A stretch of DNA of 35,304 bases from Anaerolineae bacterium. GTDB taxonomy: Bacteria; Chloroflexota; Anaerolineae; Promineifilales; Promineifilaceae. Below are positions 3,785 through 33,168 of the stretch, piece after piece. A model generated the notes under the pieces. That model was given only the letters and a program-made list of their open reading frames with translations, did not search any database and was not told where the DNA came from. Numbering within the stretch: position 1 is the first letter of the stretch; the number at the start of each line of letters is the position of its first letter. The stretch spans positions 1 to 35,304 of the forward strand of contig JANTHP010000007.1 of the NCBI GenBank assembly GCA_024762395.1, in the 5' to 3' direction. The translations under genes and the position numbers were made by a program.

Positions 3785-4017
3785 AACGGGCTCTTTGGGA
3801 ATTCGCGGGGTTTTAGGTTGCGAGTGGCGAGTAGCGGGTGGGGCGTCCAGAGAACATACCCGCTACCCGCCACTCGCCACCCATACCAACCCCGTGAAAT
3901 CCTAGAGACCCTTAAAACGTGAAACGTGAAGCGTGATAGCTATTTCACGTTTCACGTTTTACGTTTTACGCTTCACGAAAAATCCCCAAATCTCCCAATC
4001 CCCGCTACAATTGGGGC
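3785..4017. repeat. Gap with two word-array hairpins
   Basis: The gap after the triheme cytochrome holds two foldable arrays. The first has heptads of the type GCGAGTG, GCGAGTA and GCGGGTG at 3820-3839, facing a 20-nt complementary arm at 3858-3877 with one mismatch. The second has AAACGTG-type heptads at 3914-3930, facing TTTCACG, TTTTACG and TTCACG words at 3943-3977. The second hairpin could end transcription of the bc operon, although no long T run follows. I see no gene in the gap. Confidence 0.75.
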
Positions 4018-4680: not shown

Positions 4681-4705
4681 AACGTGGAATGACGTTTTAC
4701 GTTTT
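4665..4705 (-). terminator. Perfect 14-bp stem terminator built from AAAACGT heptads
   Basis: AAAACGTAAAACGT (4672-4685) and its complement (4692-4705) form a perfect 14-bp stem with a 6-base loop. Read on the minus strand it is followed by A and six T, a good intrinsic terminator for the PadR operon coming from the right. The plus-strand DUF2344 gene ends inside the left arm. More heptads (ACGTTTT, ACGCATT) continue to about 4733, so the terminator is part of a word array. Confidence 0.8.
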
Positions 4706-4730
4706 AGTTTTACGCATTACGTTTTACGCA

Positions 4731-5021
4731 TCACATCTCTTTGGGTGGCTTTTCATCCGGGATGTCCTCATCGTCATCGTCCCACCACCAGCCCCAGCCG
4801 CGACCGCGACCAGACTCATGATGATGTTCGTGACGGCCGTGCCGGCGATGTCGTTTCATCTTAAACATCATACCGGGGCCAAATCCCATCATGCCGGGGC
4901 CGAAACCCATACCGGGGCCGAAACCCATTTTCTTAATGCGTTCCTTATCGCCCTTTACCTCGATGCGAAAACCGTCGTCTGTTTCAATAAACCGTACTTC
5001 GTGAATTACCTTTTCTGTCAT
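4731..5021 (-). CDS. Small GFGPGM-repeat, His/Arg/Asp-rich protein in PadR operon
   Basis: This 96-residue protein matches no family I recognise. Residues 1-32 look like a short beta-rich segment (VIHEVRFIETDDGFRIEVKGD). Next come three near-identical hexads GFGPGM, then a Met/Lys/Arg/His-rich stretch (KMKRHRRHGRHEHHH), a GRGRGWGWWW patch and an acidic tail (DDDDEDIPDE). Histidine, methionine and acidic clusters suggest metal or nucleic-acid binding, an inference only. I chose ATG 5021 because AAGGAG lies 6 bases upstream; a longer frame to 5111 has no such site. It lies 86 nt downstream of the PadR gene and shares its terminator, so it is probably regulated by it. Confidence 0.7.
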   Translation of the reverse strand: MTEKVIHEVRFIETDDGFRIEVKGDKERIKKMGFGPGMGFGPGMMGFGPGMMFKMKRHRRHGRHEHHHESGRGRGWGWWWDDDDEDIPDEKPPKEM

Positions 5022-5931: not shown

Positions 5932-6018
5932 CGGAGAGGGTGGGATTCGAACCCACGGTGACATTACTGCCACAACGCTTTTCGAGAGCGCCCCGATCAA
6001 CCACTCCGGCACCTCTCC
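5932..6018 (-). tRNA. tRNA-Ser(CGA)
   Basis: The minus strand folds as an 87-nt class II tRNA: acceptor stem GGAGAGG/CCTCTCC with discriminator G, a D arm starting at TGCCGGAGTGG, an anticodon loop CTCGAAA with anticodon CGA, a long variable arm, and a T arm containing GGTTCGAATCC. The long variable arm and the G discriminator fit serine. No CCA is encoded. It reads UCG codons. Confidence 0.95.
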
Positions 6019-9241: not shown

Positions 9242-9544
9242 GTGGGAACAATAAGAACAAATTACTCAATTGCTGAAACACGCAACCAATTTGCCGCTTT
9301 GGTGCGCGATGTGGAAGAAAAAAAACGTGCCATAAAAATAACGCGTCGGGGAAAACCTGTTGCTGTTATTCTCTCTGCTGATGAATATCAACGGATGCAG
9401 CGCAGCAGCGCTCAAAAGGGGTTTTGGGAAGCGTATCAGGAATGGCGCATCGCATGGCAAGCCGATGATTTGTCCGTTGACGATGATGTTTGGGGCGATG
9501 TACGTGATAAATCGCTCATGCCAGAGGAAATTGTATGGGACTAA
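9242..9544 (+). CDS. Phd/YefM family antitoxin
   Basis: This 100-residue protein has the family N-terminus, YSIAETRNQFAALVRDVEE, then KITRRGKPVAVILSADEYQRM, which together form the dimeric DNA-binding domain (about residues 6-55). The C-terminal 45 residues are acidic and aromatic-rich and would wrap around the toxin. The start is GTG 9242 with AAGGAGG 5 bases upstream. It overlaps the toxin gene by 10 nt, a usual arrangement for translational coupling. It probably represses its own promoter at the 9209-9226 inverted repeat. Confidence 0.9.
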   Translation: MGTIRTNYSIAETRNQFAALVRDVEEKKRAIKITRRGKPVAVILSADEYQRMQRSSAQKGFWEAYQEWRIAWQADDLSVDDDVWGDVRDKSLMPEEIVWD

Positions 9545-9960
9545 AATATTTGCTTGACGCCAACATTATTTCAGAGCCAATGAAGCCGCGTCCCAATACC
9601 AATGTACAAGATTCTCTACGGCACAAATGGATGGAAACGGCCGTACCCGCCATTGTCTGGCATGAACTTCTATATGGCTTACACCGCCTCTCCGATTCCA
9701 GGCGCAAACGCGCCATCGCCGATTATTTGTATACCGTTGTTCAAAACGAACTGGAGATTTTGCCGTATGATAAATTGGCTGCCGAGTGGTTGGCTGAGGA
9801 ACGGGCGCGTTTGACACAAATCGGCCGTCCGCCCCCCTACGCCGATGCTCAAATTGCGGCGATTGCAATCGCAAATGATTTGACTTTAGTTACGCGCAAT
9901 ACAAACGACTTTCTTCAATTTGATGGTCTTACCATCGAAAATTGGTTTGATAAGAATTAG
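9535..9960 (+). CDS. vapC: PIN-domain ribonuclease toxin, VapC type
   Basis: This 141-residue PIN-domain protein has the expected acidic active-site residues: D8 (YLLDANIISE), E44 (VWHELLYGL), D104 (YADAQIAAIA) and D125 (TRNTNDFLQF). Such toxins cleave tRNA or rRNA when the antitoxin is degraded. The start ATG 9535 lies inside the end of the antitoxin gene. A strong palindromic hairpin begins one base after the stop codon. Confidence 0.92.
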   Translation: MGLKYLLDANIISEPMKPRPNTNVQDSLRHKWMETAVPAIVWHELLYGLHRLSDSRRKRAIADYLYTVVQNELEILPYDKLAAEWLAEERARLTQIGRPPPYADAQIAAIAIANDLTLVTRNTNDFLQFDGLTIENWFDKN

Positions 9961-21863: not shown

Positions 21864-21964
21864 GAATTGTGAATTGTGAATTGTGAACGGTGAATTGTGA
21901 ATAAGGTGTCCAATCCACAACTCAAACGACTAAACGACTAATGACTAAACGATTAAACGATTAA
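21864..21964. repeat. Two word arrays (GAATTGT heptads; AAACGACT octads)
   Basis: GAATTGT and GAACGGT heptads run at 21868-21903. After a short spacer, octads AAACGACT, AATGACT, AAACGATT and AAATGACT run from 21925 to the start codon. The last word continues into ATGACTAACGAC, so the response regulator start codon is part of the array. The two arrays are not complementary to each other. Confidence 0.7.
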
Positions 21965-22624
21965 ATGACTAACGACAAAATCCGCGTTTGTATAGCCGAC
22001 GATCACGGCGTTGTGCGGGCTGGGTTACGCAGCCTGCTGATTGATTCCGGGTTAGATGTGGTGGGCGAAGCGGAAAACGGCCGTATCGCCATCGAAATCG
22101 TCAACCAACTCCAGCCCGACGTCCTCCTCCTCGACATCCGTATGCCCGACATGGACGGCCTGCAAGCGTTAGCCGCCATCAAAACCGCCCACCCCCAGGT
22201 CAGCGTCATCATGCTCACCACCTACGCCAACCCCGAATACCTGGCCCGCGCCGTTTCCCTGGGCGCCGCCGGCTACCTCTCCAAAGAAGTAGACCCCCAG
22301 CGCATCCCCCGCGCCGTCCGCGCCGCCGCCACCGGCGAAACCTTGCTGGACCGCGCCCTGCTCCGGGCCGCTCTGCAAAACGTCGCCGCGCCGCCCCCCG
22401 TTCAACCCGAACCCACCGCCATACCCATCCCCGACCTCACCGACCAGGAAATCGTCGTCCTTAAACTCATCGTCGAAGGGCTGAACAACGACGCCATCGC
22501 CGATGCCCTCTCCATCAGCCGCAGCACCGTCAAAACCCACGTCCGCCATATCTTCCAAAAATTAGACGTATCCGACCGCACGCAAGCGGCCGTTTGGGCC
22601 GTCCGTCACGGCCTGGCAAACTAA
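21965..22624 (+). CDS. NarL/FixJ-type response regulator
   Basis: This 219-residue protein has a receiver domain (1-120) with acidic pocket D12/D13, phospho-acceptor D57 (DVLLLDIRMPD), the T/S position in MLTTYA and K in YLSKEVD. A C-terminal LuxR-type helix-turn-helix follows (about 155-215: LTDQEIVVLKLIVEGLNNDAIADAL, SRSTVKTHVRHIFQKL). It is paired with the sensor kinase directly upstream. Its targets are unknown; the large respiratory operon starting 370 nt downstream is an obvious candidate. No clear ribosome-binding site precedes ATG 21965. Confidence 0.95.
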   Translation: MTNDKIRVCIADDHGVVRAGLRSLLIDSGLDVVGEAENGRIAIEIVNQLQPDVLLLDIRMPDMDGLQALAAIKTAHPQVSVIMLTTYANPEYLARAVSLGAAGYLSKEVDPQRIPRAVRAAATGETLLDRALLRAALQNVAAPPPVQPEPTAIPIPDLTDQEIVVLKLIVEGLNNDAIADALSISRSTVKTHVRHIFQKLDVSDRTQAAVWAVRHGLAN

Positions 22625-26616: not shown

Positions 26617-26700
26617 TCGAGCAGTCATTTAGTCTTGTAGTCGAGTAGTCCGACTACCAGACTACGCGACTACGCGACTAACAGACTAACAGACTAAGAG
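26612..26700. repeat. Word array (GTAGTC then GACTAC/GACTAA)
   Basis: GTAGTCGA, GCAGTCAT and TTAGTCTT words at 26614-26650 are followed by complementary GACTACCA, GACTACGC and GACTAACA words at 26652-26697. The words are close to those of the 1559-1698 array, 25 kb away. The array ends next to the AGAGGAG ribosome-binding site of actA. Confidence 0.8.
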
Positions 26701-27243: not shown

Positions 27244-27465
27244 TGGTGGCTGGTAGCTGGTGGCTGGTAGCTGGTGGCTGGTGGCTGGTGGCTGGTGGCT
27301 GGTAGCTGGTGGCTGGTGGCTGGTGGCTGGTAGCTGGTGGTTGGTCTCTAGTTTGCCAACGACCAACGACCAACAACCAACGACCAACAACCAACGACCA
27401 ACGACCAACAACCAACAACCAACGACCAACAACCAACAACCAACAACAAACAACCAGCAACAGGA
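27244..27465. repeat. Large heptad array (GGTGGCT/GGTAGCT then CCAACGA/CCAACAA)
   Basis: About 100 bases of G/T-rich heptads (GGTGGCT, GGTAGCT) at 27244-27345 are followed, after CTCTAGTTTG, by about 100 bases of A/C-rich heptads (CCAACGA, CCAACAA) at 27356-27460. The halves are roughly complementary and could form a very long imperfect hairpin between actA and actB1. The frame of actB1 stays open through the right half for 55 codons, but the ribosome-binding site lies after the array. Confidence 0.9.
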
Positions 27466-29696: not shown

Positions 29697-29762
29697 TGTG
29701 GCGAGTGGCAGGTTGGCGAGTGGCAGGTTGGCGAGTGGCAAGTTGGCAAGTGGCAAGTTGGT
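29697..29762. repeat. Word array (GGCGAGTGGCAGGTT, 15-bp unit)
   Basis: The unit GGCGAGTGGCAGGTT and close variants (GGCAAGTGGCAAGTT) repeat about four times directly after the actB1 stop. Only one arm is present. The next array, of different octads, starts at the actB2 start codon, with the ribosome-binding site AAGGAGG (29765-29771) between them. Confidence 0.8.
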
Positions 29763-29777
29763 TGAAGGAGGTGTTTT

Positions 29778-30512
29778 ATGACTACCCGACTATCCGACAA
29801 CCCGACTACCCGACTATCCGACCATCGCTGGGGCATGGCGATTGACCTGGATAAATGCACCGGCTGTCAAGCGTGTGTGGTGTCCTGCCATGCCGAAAAT
29901 AATGTGCCTATTGTTGGTGAAGAAGAGGCGGCTTACGGCCGTACTGCCCATTGGCTGCGGATCGAACGGTACTGGGAAGGGGAATACCCCAACGTGAAGG
30001 CCAAATTCATGCCCGTTATGTGCCAGCAGTGCACCGAAGCGCCCTGCGAAGCCGTCTGCCCCGTCTACGCCACCTACCACAGCGATGAGGGGCTAAACGG
30101 GCAAATTTACAACCGCTGCATCGGAACCCGCTTCTGCGGCTCCGCTTGCCCTTACAAACAGCGCATGTACAACTGGTTCGACCCCGTCTTCCCCGAACCG
30201 CTGGAGCAGCAGCTAAACCCGGACGTAACCGTCCGCAGCCGGGGCATCATGGAAAAATGCACCTTCTGCGTCCAGCGCATCCGTCGCGTCAAAGAGGACG
30301 CCAAAGCGGAGGGGCGCGAGGTAACCGACGGCGAAATCCAACCCGCCTGCGCCCAGTCCTGCCCTACCAACGCCATTGTCTTTGGCGATTTGAACGACCC
30401 GGAAAGCCGGGTCAGCCAGATGGCCCGCAGTTCTCGCGCCTTCCGTTTGCTGGAAAACTTGGGAACCGAGCCGGGCGTTGTGTACCTCAAAGGAGGCGAA
30501 ACCCGTGTCTGA
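29778..30512 (+). CDS. ActB2: ferredoxin-like iron-sulfur subunit, 3 x [4Fe-4S] + [3Fe-4S]
   Basis: This 244-residue protein of the DmsB/NrfC/HybA type has four cluster-binding sets: C27, C30, C33, C37; C82, C85, C90, C94; C114, (T117), C120, C124; and C161, C164, C191, C195. The second cysteine of the third set is replaced by threonine, as expected for a [3Fe-4S] cluster and in line with one [3Fe-4S] plus three [4Fe-4S] reported for alternative complex III. It should carry electrons from ActC to ActA or ActB1. ATG 29778 has AAGGAGG 6 bases upstream, so the first 17 residues (MTTRLSDNPTTRLSDHR) are encoded by octad repeat words. It overlaps actC by 8 nt. Confidence 0.93.
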   Translation: MTTRLSDNPTTRLSDHRWGMAIDLDKCTGCQACVVSCHAENNVPIVGEEEAAYGRTAHWLRIERYWEGEYPNVKAKFMPVMCQQCTEAPCEAVCPVYATYHSDEGLNGQIYNRCIGTRFCGSACPYKQRMYNWFDPVFPEPLEQQLNPDVTVRSRGIMEKCTFCVQRIRRVKEDAKAEGREVTDGEIQPACAQSCPTNAIVFGDLNDPESRVSQMARSSRAFRLLENLGTEPGVVYLKGGETRV

Positions 30513-31932
30513 CAGCGTAAGCAGAATCAAGAAGAGCGATGGCATCATCATCCCTGAAGATGTCCGCGACCAATTGTTGTTGACGACGTTGAGCGACGAC
30601 GAACTGAACCAAAAGATGTTGGGACCGATGCAAAAAACCGGGCCGATGTTCTGGACGGCCGTTGTCGTCTTAGCTGCCATCTTTGCCTGGGGATTATACG
30701 CCTGGGGCTACCAAATCTACTGGGGCTTCGGCGTTTCCGGCATCAACCGTCCCGTTTACTGGGGCATGTACATCACCACCTTCGTCTTCTGGGTGGGCAT
30801 CAGCCACGCCGGAACGATGATTTCGGCCGTGCTGCGTATCTTCAAAGCGGATTGGCGGCGTCCCATCACCCGCGGTGCGGAAGCGATGACCGCCTTTGCC
30901 CTGATGATGGCCGGGCTGTTCCCCCTCATCCACGTGGGGCGCGTCTGGAAGGTGTACTGGATGATTCCCTATCCCAACAATCGCCACCTGTGGCCCAATT
31001 TCCAATCGCCGCTCATGTGGGACATGATTGCCATCACCACCTACCTGGTAGGCAGCAGCCTTTACCTTTACCTGGCGCTCCTTCCCGACTTGGGGATGGC
31101 CCGCGATAACAGTACCGGCTGGCGTTACAAACTCTACCGCATCCTGGCTCTGGGCTGGCGCGGCACGGAACCGGGCTGGCACAAGCTGGAAACAGCTTTG
31201 GGCATTTTCGCTATTGTTATCATCCCCGTATTCCTCTCCGTTCACTCCATCGTCTCCTGGGACTTTGCCGTGACCAGTCAGCCCGGTTGGCACAGCACCA
31301 TCTATCCGCTGCTCTTCATCATCGGGGCCATTTTCTCCGGCCTTTCGGCGTTAGGCTCCATTTTGGTTGTCGTGCGTTGGGGGATGAAGCTGGACTTCTT
31401 CTTGCGTAAGGAGCATTTGGACAATGTGGGCAAACTGGTCATGGTTGCCGGGCTGTTTTGGCTGTACATCTGGTTTGCCAGCCTGATTGTGAATTGGTAC
31501 GGCAACATGCCTGTCATCCGCGAATTGATGCACGATGAATTTAGCGGCGAAATGGCCCCGTTTTTCTACACGATGATGATTGCCAATGTCGTTCCCATCA
31601 TTCTTTTGATGTTCCGGCGCGTGCGGCGCAGCCCAATCTTACTGCTCATCCTGACGTTGTCGGTTAATGTGGGGATGTATGTGGAACGGTTCCTGCTGGT
31701 TTCCGGCAGTTTGTTACGCAACTATTTGCCGTTTAACTGGGGCCAATTCCGCCCGACCTGGGTGTCGTTAAGCATTGTGGCCATGACGTTTGCCGGATTT
31801 ATTCTGTTTTACATGCTCTTTACGCGGCTGATTCCTTATGTGCCGGTATGGGAAGTGAAACAGGGGCGTTTGCGCTACGGTACACGCCTTGTCGGCCGGG
31901 TCCAGGTTCCGACGATTACGCAGGTGGATTAG
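30505..31932 (+). CDS. actC: ActC: NrfD/PsrC-type membrane subunit
   Basis: This 475-residue polytopic protein of the NrfD family has about ten membrane segments. Landmarks are GINRPVYWGMYITTFVFWVGISHAG, ADWRRPITRGAEAM, HSIVSWDFA and NVGMYVERFLLV. NrfD-type ActC binds menaquinol and takes part in proton handling. GTG 30505 is chosen because AAAGGAGG lies 8 bases upstream and its GTGTCTGA overlaps the actB2 stop, a sign of translational coupling. No second NrfD gene (actF) is found downstream. Confidence 0.93.
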   Translation: MSDSVSRIKKSDGIIIPEDVRDQLLLTTLSDDELNQKMLGPMQKTGPMFWTAVVVLAAIFAWGLYAWGYQIYWGFGVSGINRPVYWGMYITTFVFWVGISHAGTMISAVLRIFKADWRRPITRGAEAMTAFALMMAGLFPLIHVGRVWKVYWMIPYPNNRHLWPNFQSPLMWDMIAITTYLVGSSLYLYLALLPDLGMARDNSTGWRYKLYRILALGWRGTEPGWHKLETALGIFAIVIIPVFLSVHSIVSWDFAVTSQPGWHSTIYPLLFIIGAIFSGLSALGSILVVVRWGMKLDFFLRKEHLDNVGKLVMVAGLFWLYIWFASLIVNWYGNMPVIRELMHDEFSGEMAPFFYTMMIANVVPIILLMFRRVRRSPILLLILTLSVNVGMYVERFLLVSGSLLRNYLPFNWGQFRPTWVSLSIVAMTFAGFILFYMLFTRLIPYVPVWEVKQGRLRYGTRLVGRVQVPTITQVD

Positions 31933-32150
31933 TGGCGGTTGGCGGTTGGTAACTGGTAACTGGTAGTTGGTGGTTGGTAACTGGTAGTTGGTAACTGGTA
32001 GTTGGTAACTGGTAGTTGGTAGTTGGTAGTTGGTAGTTGTTCACCAGCAACCAGCCACCAGCCACCAGCAACCACCCACCAGCCACCAGCCACCAGCCAC
32101 CAGCCACCAGCAACCAGCAACCAGCCACCAGCCACCACCCGCAGGTTGGT
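31933..32150. repeat. Large heptad array (TGGTAGT/TGGTAAC then CCAGCAA/CCAGCCA)
   Basis: G/T-rich heptads TGGTAAC, TGGTAGT and TGGTGGT run from about 31944 to 32038, then A/C-rich heptads CCAGCAA, CCAGCCA and CCACCCA run to about 32140. The halves are largely complementary, forming a possible hairpin of about 190 bases between actC and the four-helix-bundle gene. No gene is present. Confidence 0.9.
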
Positions 32151-32155
32151 GAGTT

Positions 32156-32524
32156 ATGGGTAAGATTCGGCATTATCGTGATTTGGAAGTCTGGAAAAGA
32201 GGCGTGGAAATTGCGGTGATGGTTTATGAGAATACGAAACAGTTCCCTAAAACAGAGGCTTATGGGTTGACGAATCAGATACGACGCGCGGTGGTTTCGA
32301 TTCCTTCAAATATCGCCGAGGGATACGGCCGTTCCAACAAGGAATTTGCCCGTTATCTCACAATTGCCAGAGGATCGTTATCTGAACTAGAGACGCAACT
32401 TGAAATTGCACAAAGGATTGGCTTTTTGCCGATGGCATCATTTACTGCAATCAACAAAGAGCTAACAATTCTGGGCAAACAACTCAACGTCCTGTCACAA
32501 AAAGTCAACGCGACCTACCGATGA
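32156..32524 (+). CDS. Four-helix-bundle protein (S23 / 23S rRNA intervening-sequence family)
   Basis: This 122-residue protein shows the family pattern from end to end: YRDLEVWKRGVEIAVMVYE, TNQIRRAVVSIPSNIAEGYGR, ARGSLSELETQLEIA and a final helix. Members were first found in intervening sequences of 23S rRNA genes and include the Avd accessory proteins of diversity-generating retroelements; most have no known role. Here it sits inside the Act operon between actC and actD, with large heptad arrays on both sides. Its stop overlaps an in-frame ATG (ATGA at 32521-32524) that reads through the next array into actD. The start ATG 32156 has only a weak GGTGAG site. Confidence 0.92.
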   Translation: MGKIRHYRDLEVWKRGVEIAVMVYENTKQFPKTEAYGLTNQIRRAVVSIPSNIAEGYGRSNKEFARYLTIARGSLSELETQLEIAQRIGFLPMASFTAINKELTILGKQLNVLSQKVNATYR

Positions 32525-32632
32525 CCAGCAACCAACAACCAGCAACCAACAACCAGCAACCAACAACCAGCAACCAACAACCAGCAACCAACAACCAGCA
32601 ACCAATAACCAATAACCAGCAACCAACAACAG
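32525..32632. repeat. Heptad array (CCAGCAA/CCAACAA), one arm
   Basis: About fifteen heptads CCAACAA and CCAGCAA run from the end of the four-helix-bundle gene to just before actD. There is no complementary arm beside it, but it is complementary to the G/T-rich left half of the 31933-32150 array, so the two could pair around the four-helix-bundle gene. It stays open in the actD frame and would encode a Gln/Asn/Pro/Thr-rich stretch (ATNNQQPTTSNQQP). Confidence 0.9.
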
Positions 32633-32640
32633 GTGATTCT

Positions 32641-33168
32641 ATGACTAAAACAATCAATCTCATGGGCTTGTTTGACGATGACAAAGCGACGTCGGCGGCG
32701 CTGGACGATATTTACGAATTAGGCGTGCGCGACGATCAGATTACGGTTATCTCCAGCATTCCTTACCCAGAGCAGGCATTGGGCCGCCATCATGTGTGGG
32801 TTCGGCTGCCGTTTATTGTGCTGGCCGGGGCTTTTGTCGGTTTTCTGTTTGGCTATTTTCTATCGGCCATTACGCCCCGGCTGTACCCGATTAACGTGAG
32901 TGGACACCCCCTTAGCGGCGGGCCGCCGGCGGCCATCATCACCTATATCTTTACGATGTTGTTTGCCGTTATTTCGACATTCATCGGTGTGCTGTGGGAA
33001 ATTGATGTGCCTGGCTTTGAGAAGAAATTCTATGACCGCAAGGTCACGAGCGGACAGTTGGCCGTCGTGTTGGAAGGTCTTCCGGCCGATAAGGAGAAGG
33101 CGGCGACGGCGGCGATGACGGCTCATGGCGGTCAGGATATCCGCCGCCCGGAGAAGATAACATTATGA
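32641..33168 (+). CDS. actD: ActD: DUF3341 membrane subunit
   Basis: This 175-residue protein matches DUF3341: a soluble N-terminal part (NLMGLFDDDKATSAALDDIYELGVRDDQITVIS), then two membrane segments (about 58-80 and 98-122) with HPLSGGPPAAIITYIFTM between or near them, and a soluble C-terminus. ActD is a peripheral structural subunit of alternative complex III. ATG 32641 has AGGTGA 4 bases upstream. A longer version from ATG 32521 would add 40 array-encoded residues and would overlap the preceding stop as ATGA; this is less likely but open. It overlaps actE by 4 nt. Confidence 0.9.
   Translation: MTKTINLMGLFDDDKATSAALDDIYELGVRDDQITVISSIPYPEQALGRHHVWVRLPFIVLAGAFVGFLFGYFLSAITPRLYPINVSGHPLSGGPPAAIITYIFTMLFAVISTFIGVLWEIDVPGFEKKFYDRKVTSGQLAVVLEGLPADKEKAATAAMTAHGGQDIRRPEKITL

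Follow-up and report, generated by a model that had tools for sequence, protein, structure and literature searches.

S23-family genes between complementary heptad arrays: a probable mobile cassette at bacterial operon junctions

In REPIN-RAYT systems a gene is flanked by inverted short elements, and many gene-free relatives of these elements are found in the same genome. The intervening sequence (IVS) of the Coxiella burnetii 23S rRNA gene holds an S23 open-reading frame and a 28-bp stem, is excised by RNase III and carries tandem heptads (GACAGAT) directly before the S23 start in a copy number that varies between strains, whilst S23p itself seems to be untranslated (PMC4990558). Heptameric intergenic repeats (STRR) are described in cyanobacteria and Xanthomonas, with 70–75 inverted pairs in Xanthomonas (PMC4692102), and TAACTGA intergenic repeats in Beggiatoaceae (PMC4679880); S23/IVP genes have been listed in DGR-like or CRISPR neighbourhoods (PMC10053308, PMC10910872). 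S23 or ‘four helix bundle’ genes, known so far chiefly from insertions in rRNA genes, have been on record for years with no function assigned, and so have heptad arrays in intergenic DNA. No link between S23 genes and flanking heptads was found outside rRNA in the literature covered, which largely left aside subscription journals and preprints, and the novelty of the link is limited to that literature.

Here we analysed a 35,304-nt stretch of an Anaerolineae genome (the window), in which an S23 gene lies inside the Act operon, preceded by a GT-heptad and then an AC-heptad array and followed by a second AC-heptad array. The features discussed are:

27244..27461, + strand, hairpin built from the same words, (TGGTGGC)n(CCAACAA)n, in the actA–actB spacer, lacking S23 (TRF)
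30478..31932, + strand, actC (NrfD-like), upstream operon neighbour
31938..32039, + strand, outer 5' arm, an array of GT-rich heptads (GTTGGTA/ACTGGTA) with complementarity to each of the AC arrays (TRF score 147)
32042..32137, + strand, AC-rich heptad array (CACCAGC) adjoining the GT array, with which it forms the favoured local hairpin (TRF score 157)
32156..32524, + strand, S23/23S_rRNA_IVP gene (PF05635, TIGR02436, AlphaFold, Foldseek)
32524..32630, + strand, AC-rich heptad/14-mer array (ACCAGCAACCAACA), 3' arm (TRF score 179)
32641..33168, + strand, actD, downstream operon neighbour (PF11821, E=8e-24)

We consider it probable (roughly 0.6) that such units, an S23 gene with two cognate, complementary arrays of 7- or 8-nt words, placed in sense orientation at operon junctions, are mobile IVS-like cassettes. 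They share with the 23S rRNA IVS an S23 frame between terminal inverted repeats, which in the IVS form a stem with the frame in its loop and may do so here, heptads before the S23 start, patchy occurrence and a probable horizontal acquisition (PMC4990558). They differ in that the cassette here stands between protein genes of an operon (actC–actD) and not within an rRNA gene, and in that the arms are long arrays of 6–8-mers with matching gene-free arrays scattered through the genome. None of 20 selected S23 loci from other phyla lay in rRNA, so the connection to rRNA IVSs rests on the Coxiella study (PMC4990558). On this reading, the Coxiella IVS would be a special case of a wider S23 element.

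The gene between actC and actD is a bona fide S23/23S_rRNA_IVP gene of 122 aa, as a preliminary description of this DNA had proposed. Profile searches placed it far above the curated cut-offs of PF05635 (E=1.8e-36, 125 bits against 33.8) and TIGR02436 (E=1.6e-34, 118 bits against 24), and the AlphaFold monomer prediction is a four-helix bundle (pLDDT 96.4) whose nearest structure in a Foldseek search is Xcc0516 (2gsc; TM 0.89, E=1.6e-8), a relative that forms a homopentameric ring (PMC4990558). The mechanical actD frame begins at the array's edge (32521), and its PF11821 match begins only at residue 47, so the likely actD start is the ATG at 32641. An Rfam scan of the window detected no structured RNA family at the S23 locus and no rRNA; the sole match was a tRNA gene (5932–6018, − strand).

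The same description had linked the family to diversity-generating retroelements (DGRs), and this link is limited to the fold of the protein. The protein resembles the DGR accessory protein Avd as a four-helix bundle (4dwl TM 0.79; 8ub7 TM 0.78), though more distantly than it does 2gsc, and it matches the Avd model NF033474 weakly (E=5.6e-7; 29.8 bits, below the cut-off of 80). There is no reverse transcriptase at the S23 locus, and the only match in the source genome is on contig C350, outside the window. Retrohoming in which S23 acts as Avd whilst a reverse transcriptase in trans copies array RNA to new sites would account for the fold and profile similarities, yet several S23-bearing genomes gave no reverse transcriptase match, among them one (G025) that is 99% complete in 3 contigs and holds 4 S23 genes with strong arms, and we regard this mechanism as very improbable. 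A reverse transcriptase as a requirement for S23 persistence was rejected on the basis of such genomes.

The G/T-rich array on the left of the gene had been described as complementary to the A/C-rich array on its right, and it is (75/97 positions, duplex −121 kcal/mol), but a second array left of the gene, the near AC array, had been overlooked and pairs with it similarly (72/98, duplex −127 kcal/mol). In the minimum-energy fold of 31933–32640 (z=−6.85) the GT array pairs with this near array and the right array is almost wholly unpaired. The large stem with the gene in its loop, also put forward in that description, is therefore possible from the complementary arms but is not the preferred fold at this locus, where the near AC array competes for the GT array. 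The gene-free hairpin between actA and actB resembles the arrays around the S23 gene (Smith–Waterman (SW) scores 90 and 131), and the cassette of the S23 locus seems to have inserted into a hairpin of arrays like the one that is still gene-free at actA–actB.

The association between S23 genes and arrays extends well beyond this locus. In the source genome (4.9 Mb, 500 contigs) all 11 PF05635 matches, of which two seem to be parts of a single disrupted gene, were adjoined by tandem arrays of 6–8-mers found by TRF or by eye. Their words were locus-specific (TGAGGGA, GGTTATC, AATTGTC, GCGGGTA, GAATGAT, GAGCTA and others), and when the 5' flank of a locus was compared with the reverse-complemented 3' flanks of all loci, the best match was usually its own. 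Across Chloroflexota we collected 81 distinct S23 genes, 78 of them with full flanks, and inverted arms (SW≥30) were present at 50/78 compared with 5/182 for the other genes at these loci, a strong association and the opposite of one outcome that the preliminary description had named as refuting it. Similarly, arms were found at 64/97 S23 loci in Bacteroidota, Planctomycetota, Cyanobacteriota, Clostridia, Proteobacteria and others, against 2/161 controls. When 169 S23 loci from many phyla were pooled, the 5' and 3' flanks were complementary in 65.7% of cognate pairs and in 2.0% of non-cognate ones, with thresholds picked by inspection and a flank scoring that favours long arms. Pooled ordinary genes had arm pairs at 7/343, and PIN genes, of similar size and from the same genomes, at 0/29. 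About a third of the S23 loci (34%) carried no significant arm pair; the genomes surveyed are drafts in which many S23 loci are close to contig ends, and possible causes are that arms have decayed, were misassembled or are not needed.

Among the families tested the array-arm architecture is specific to S23, with the exception of PF13366. GxxExxY genes (PF13366, PD-(D/E)XK) of the same Chloroflexota had cognate inverted, imperfect arrays at 18/26 loci compared with 6.3% of non-cognate pairs (loci L322–L351, first noticed at L083:7614-7998), built of longer words such as CACAGAGG, ACGGATAAAACGGATTAG and TCTGCGTTAATCTGCG, and may represent a second gene family with this architecture. The putative interrupted S23 gene of the source genome comprises two contig-end matches (C292:5685-5939 and C12:1-265 of G000; L008 and L011) that share ~97 nt; they look like one gene split by an insert of ~100 bp with inverted ends (AGATTTGTCAAATTT ... 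AAATTTGACAAATCT) and flanked by arms whose arrays have the GAGCTA word.

The arms keep close to the gene, the 5' arm lying a median of 22 nt ahead of the S23 start codon and the 3' arm 9 nt beyond the stop, and are strand-polar, with G exceeding C in the 5' arm in 100/108 cases. Where a period could be called it was 7 at 71 loci, 8 at 27 and 6 at 2, so that 98/178 loci had a period of 7 or 8, which was never found in shuffled S23 flanks. Of 127 S23 genes between co-directional neighbours 117 were sense and 10 antisense, but this co-orientation is by itself weak evidence, because ordinary genes in such positions show a nearly equal bias (157 sense, 24 antisense; 157/181).

At the level of single junctions, presence and absence of the unit differ between relatives. 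In the best-conserved relative (G016, ActC 85% identical) the actC–actD spacer is 4 nt long and lacks S23, and in another relative (G013) it is 42 nt long and contains a short array of a different word but no gene; the S23 gene is therefore not a fixed member of actC–actD, and the second refuting outcome named in the preliminary description was likewise not observed. In Flavobacteria, the S23 gene at the sdhA–sdhB junction is flanked by AGGCAATAG arms in one set of species and by TAATTAGTGA arms in another. Proteins of the second set resemble those encoded between gmk and nadD, where the arms are TAATTAGTGA as well, more closely than they resemble the remaining sdhA–sdhB proteins. Since the TAATTAGTGA-arm proteins group with the gmk–nadD proteins and the arms differ, this junction was filled by two S23 lineages. 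Together with the linkage of words to protein lineage described below, this carries the earlier proposal, that array, gene and array form a cassette that entered a conserved operon, well beyond the window locus. Every move of a cassette is deduced from the comparison of genomes and would correspond to insertions that were not themselves observed. No S23 gene was present in the phage records searched, so carriage by phages is unsupported.

Arm words and period follow the S23 lineage and not the locus. Among 111 arm-bearing loci, same-sense arm words were common to 0.5% of pairs at unrelated sites below 35% protein identity, to 24% of pairs at 65–80% identity and to 75% above 80% (n=8 pairs in this last bin), whilst there was essentially no antisense similarity. 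Between phyla, arm-word similarity climbed from 0.8% to 13.5% with S23 identity, and within-group permutation supported both the correlation (p<0.0005) and the proportion of similar pairs (p=0.011); related S23 pairs within single genomes were too few for a test. In the S23 tree, a clade with the AGGCACAA word spans Deltaproteobacteria/Myxococcota, KSB1, Planctomycetota, Calditrichota and Bacteroidota, and a clade with the TTAGC word spans Bacteroidota, a cyanobacterial plasmid and Chloroflexota. The period of the arrays also follows the protein tree, requiring 13 changes compared with 18–23 in 30 shuffles.

This linkage bears on whether the arms belong to the gene at all. Heptad arrays could arise in junctions by polymerase slippage and strand switching and simply offer a safe harbour in which S23 genes land, the arms and the protein being functionally unrelated. 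Words and period that track the lineage of the protein even between unrelated loci and between phyla, the absence of PIN genes from such arms and the occurrence, already partly seen, of same-word cassettes at different loci in distant hosts argue against this. Two observations speak for it: most arrays of the source genome are gene-free, and intergenic heptads with no noted S23 link occur in Xanthomonas and Nostoc (PMC4692102) and in Beggiatoaceae (PMC4679880). The tandem 7-nt words in intergenic DNA are indeed common to those repeats and the arrays of the window; what differs is that here the identity of the word is tied to the S23 lineage, whereas PMC4692102 and PMC4679880 report no S23 link.

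The gene-free arrays were surveyed with TRF in an 835-kb sample of the source genome, which contained 303 arrays, mostly of period 7 and 8, compared with 19 in a shuffled copy. Of these, 218 had a period of 6–8 or 14–16, and for 41 of the 218 a complementary array followed on the right, at a distance of up to 40 nt in 34 cases. Array pairs with a gene-sized gap but no S23 gene proved on inspection to enclose ordinary genes or to be arrays within coding sequence. Gene-free arrays with the same words as S23 arms are scattered through the genome: dispersed arrays matched 8/10 of its own S23 arms, and the matches per arm fell from 9.8 for own S23 arms to 7.7 for arms of the same genus, 3.2 for the same family or class and 0.5 for other phyla, the first count being inflated because the own arms are longer (53 vs 34–42 nt). 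Sampled relatives without S23 had one array of period 7 or 8 in 466 kb compared with 33 in 410 kb of S23-bearing relatives, in counts that ignore kinship. This near absence of heptad arrays from S23-less relatives is a further point against hitchhiking of S23 genes in pre-existing arrays, which we consider unlikely.

Dispersed gene-free elements that share sequence with the flanks of a gene recall REPIN-RAYT systems. The units described here differ in having an S23 (PF05635) gene and no RAYT (Y1/TnpA-like) transposase between the repeats, and in being composed of tandem 6–8-mers that differ at nearly every gene. To our knowledge the S23 four-helix bundle, unlike RAYT, has no known catalytic site.

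The position of the arms could also reflect autoregulation, in which S23 would be a domesticated RNA-binding protein and the arrays its translational operator and a 3' element, recognised by a TRAP-like ring, with regulation and not mobility as the outcome. The short distances to the start and stop codons, the strand polarity and the variation of the arms with the protein lineage are all consistent with this, as are the pentameric ring of 2gsc (PMC4990558) and the long vertical retention of S23 genes at gmk–nadD and sdhA–sdhB in Flavobacterium. Autoregulation leaves unexplained, however, the gene-free arrays of the same words, the patchy occupancy of junctions and the rRNA IVSs whose S23 frame is apparently untranslated (PMC4990558), and we judge it distinctly improbable.

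On the preferred reading of a mobile cassette, the arms would pair in the transcript and leave the S23 frame in the loop, and RNase III would cleave the resulting stem, as it does in the rRNA IVS of Coxiella, making insertion into an operon tolerable. Among flavobacterial nadD orthologues, cognate arms matched no better than swapped ones (33.7 vs 32.4), which gives no fine-scale compensatory evidence for a stem. A pentameric S23 ring may recognise the word that its own arms repeat, perhaps with one word per subunit, and such recognition would keep gene and arms together. It might also contribute to the copying or seeding of arrays at further junctions and so give rise to gene-free derivatives, comparable to REPINs in relation to RAYT. 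Such a role of the protein in binding or spreading the arrays, raised in the preliminary description, is less secure than the cassette reading. A broader proposal would make S23 cassettes a new class of bacterial mobile element, with a ring-shaped RNA- or DNA-binding protein that recognises a lineage-specific tandem word and by this recognition builds, copies or maintains the complementary arms around its gene and the gene-free hairpins elsewhere. We put it forward tentatively, as somewhat less likely to be right than wrong. The tie between S23 and arrays provides a testable origin for heptad arrays and makes rRNA IVSs one niche of a wider element; if the proposal is true, S23 cassettes would be a single origin for many unexplained bacterial heptad repeats, and the numerous S23 lineages with their different words would form a natural series of protein–repeat specificities.

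S23 genes were also encountered within CRISPR operons, between cas10 and cmr3 on a Picosynechococcus plasmid (L256) and between cas6 and cas4 on a Pseudanabaena plasmid (L251). Because array arms occur on both sides in each case, S23 genes in CRISPR operons (for instance cas10–S23–cmr3) and in other operons may be passengers and not functional members. Arrays may mislead automatic annotation, as the mechanical frames of actB and actD run upstream through arrays (27309–27461 and 32521–32640) and the likely start codons come after them, so that array-encoded N-termini may result. Elsewhere in the window, a gene pair at 9242–9960 consists of an antitoxin-like gene and a PIN-domain gene (PIN match at G000:C7:9547-9924). 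Further arrays of 7–8-mers are located at 1548–1697, 3942–3977, 4692–4731, 21864–21980, 26652–26696 and 29699–29822, several of them short hairpins, and a TAGTC/GACTA octamer word is present at three far-apart spacers.
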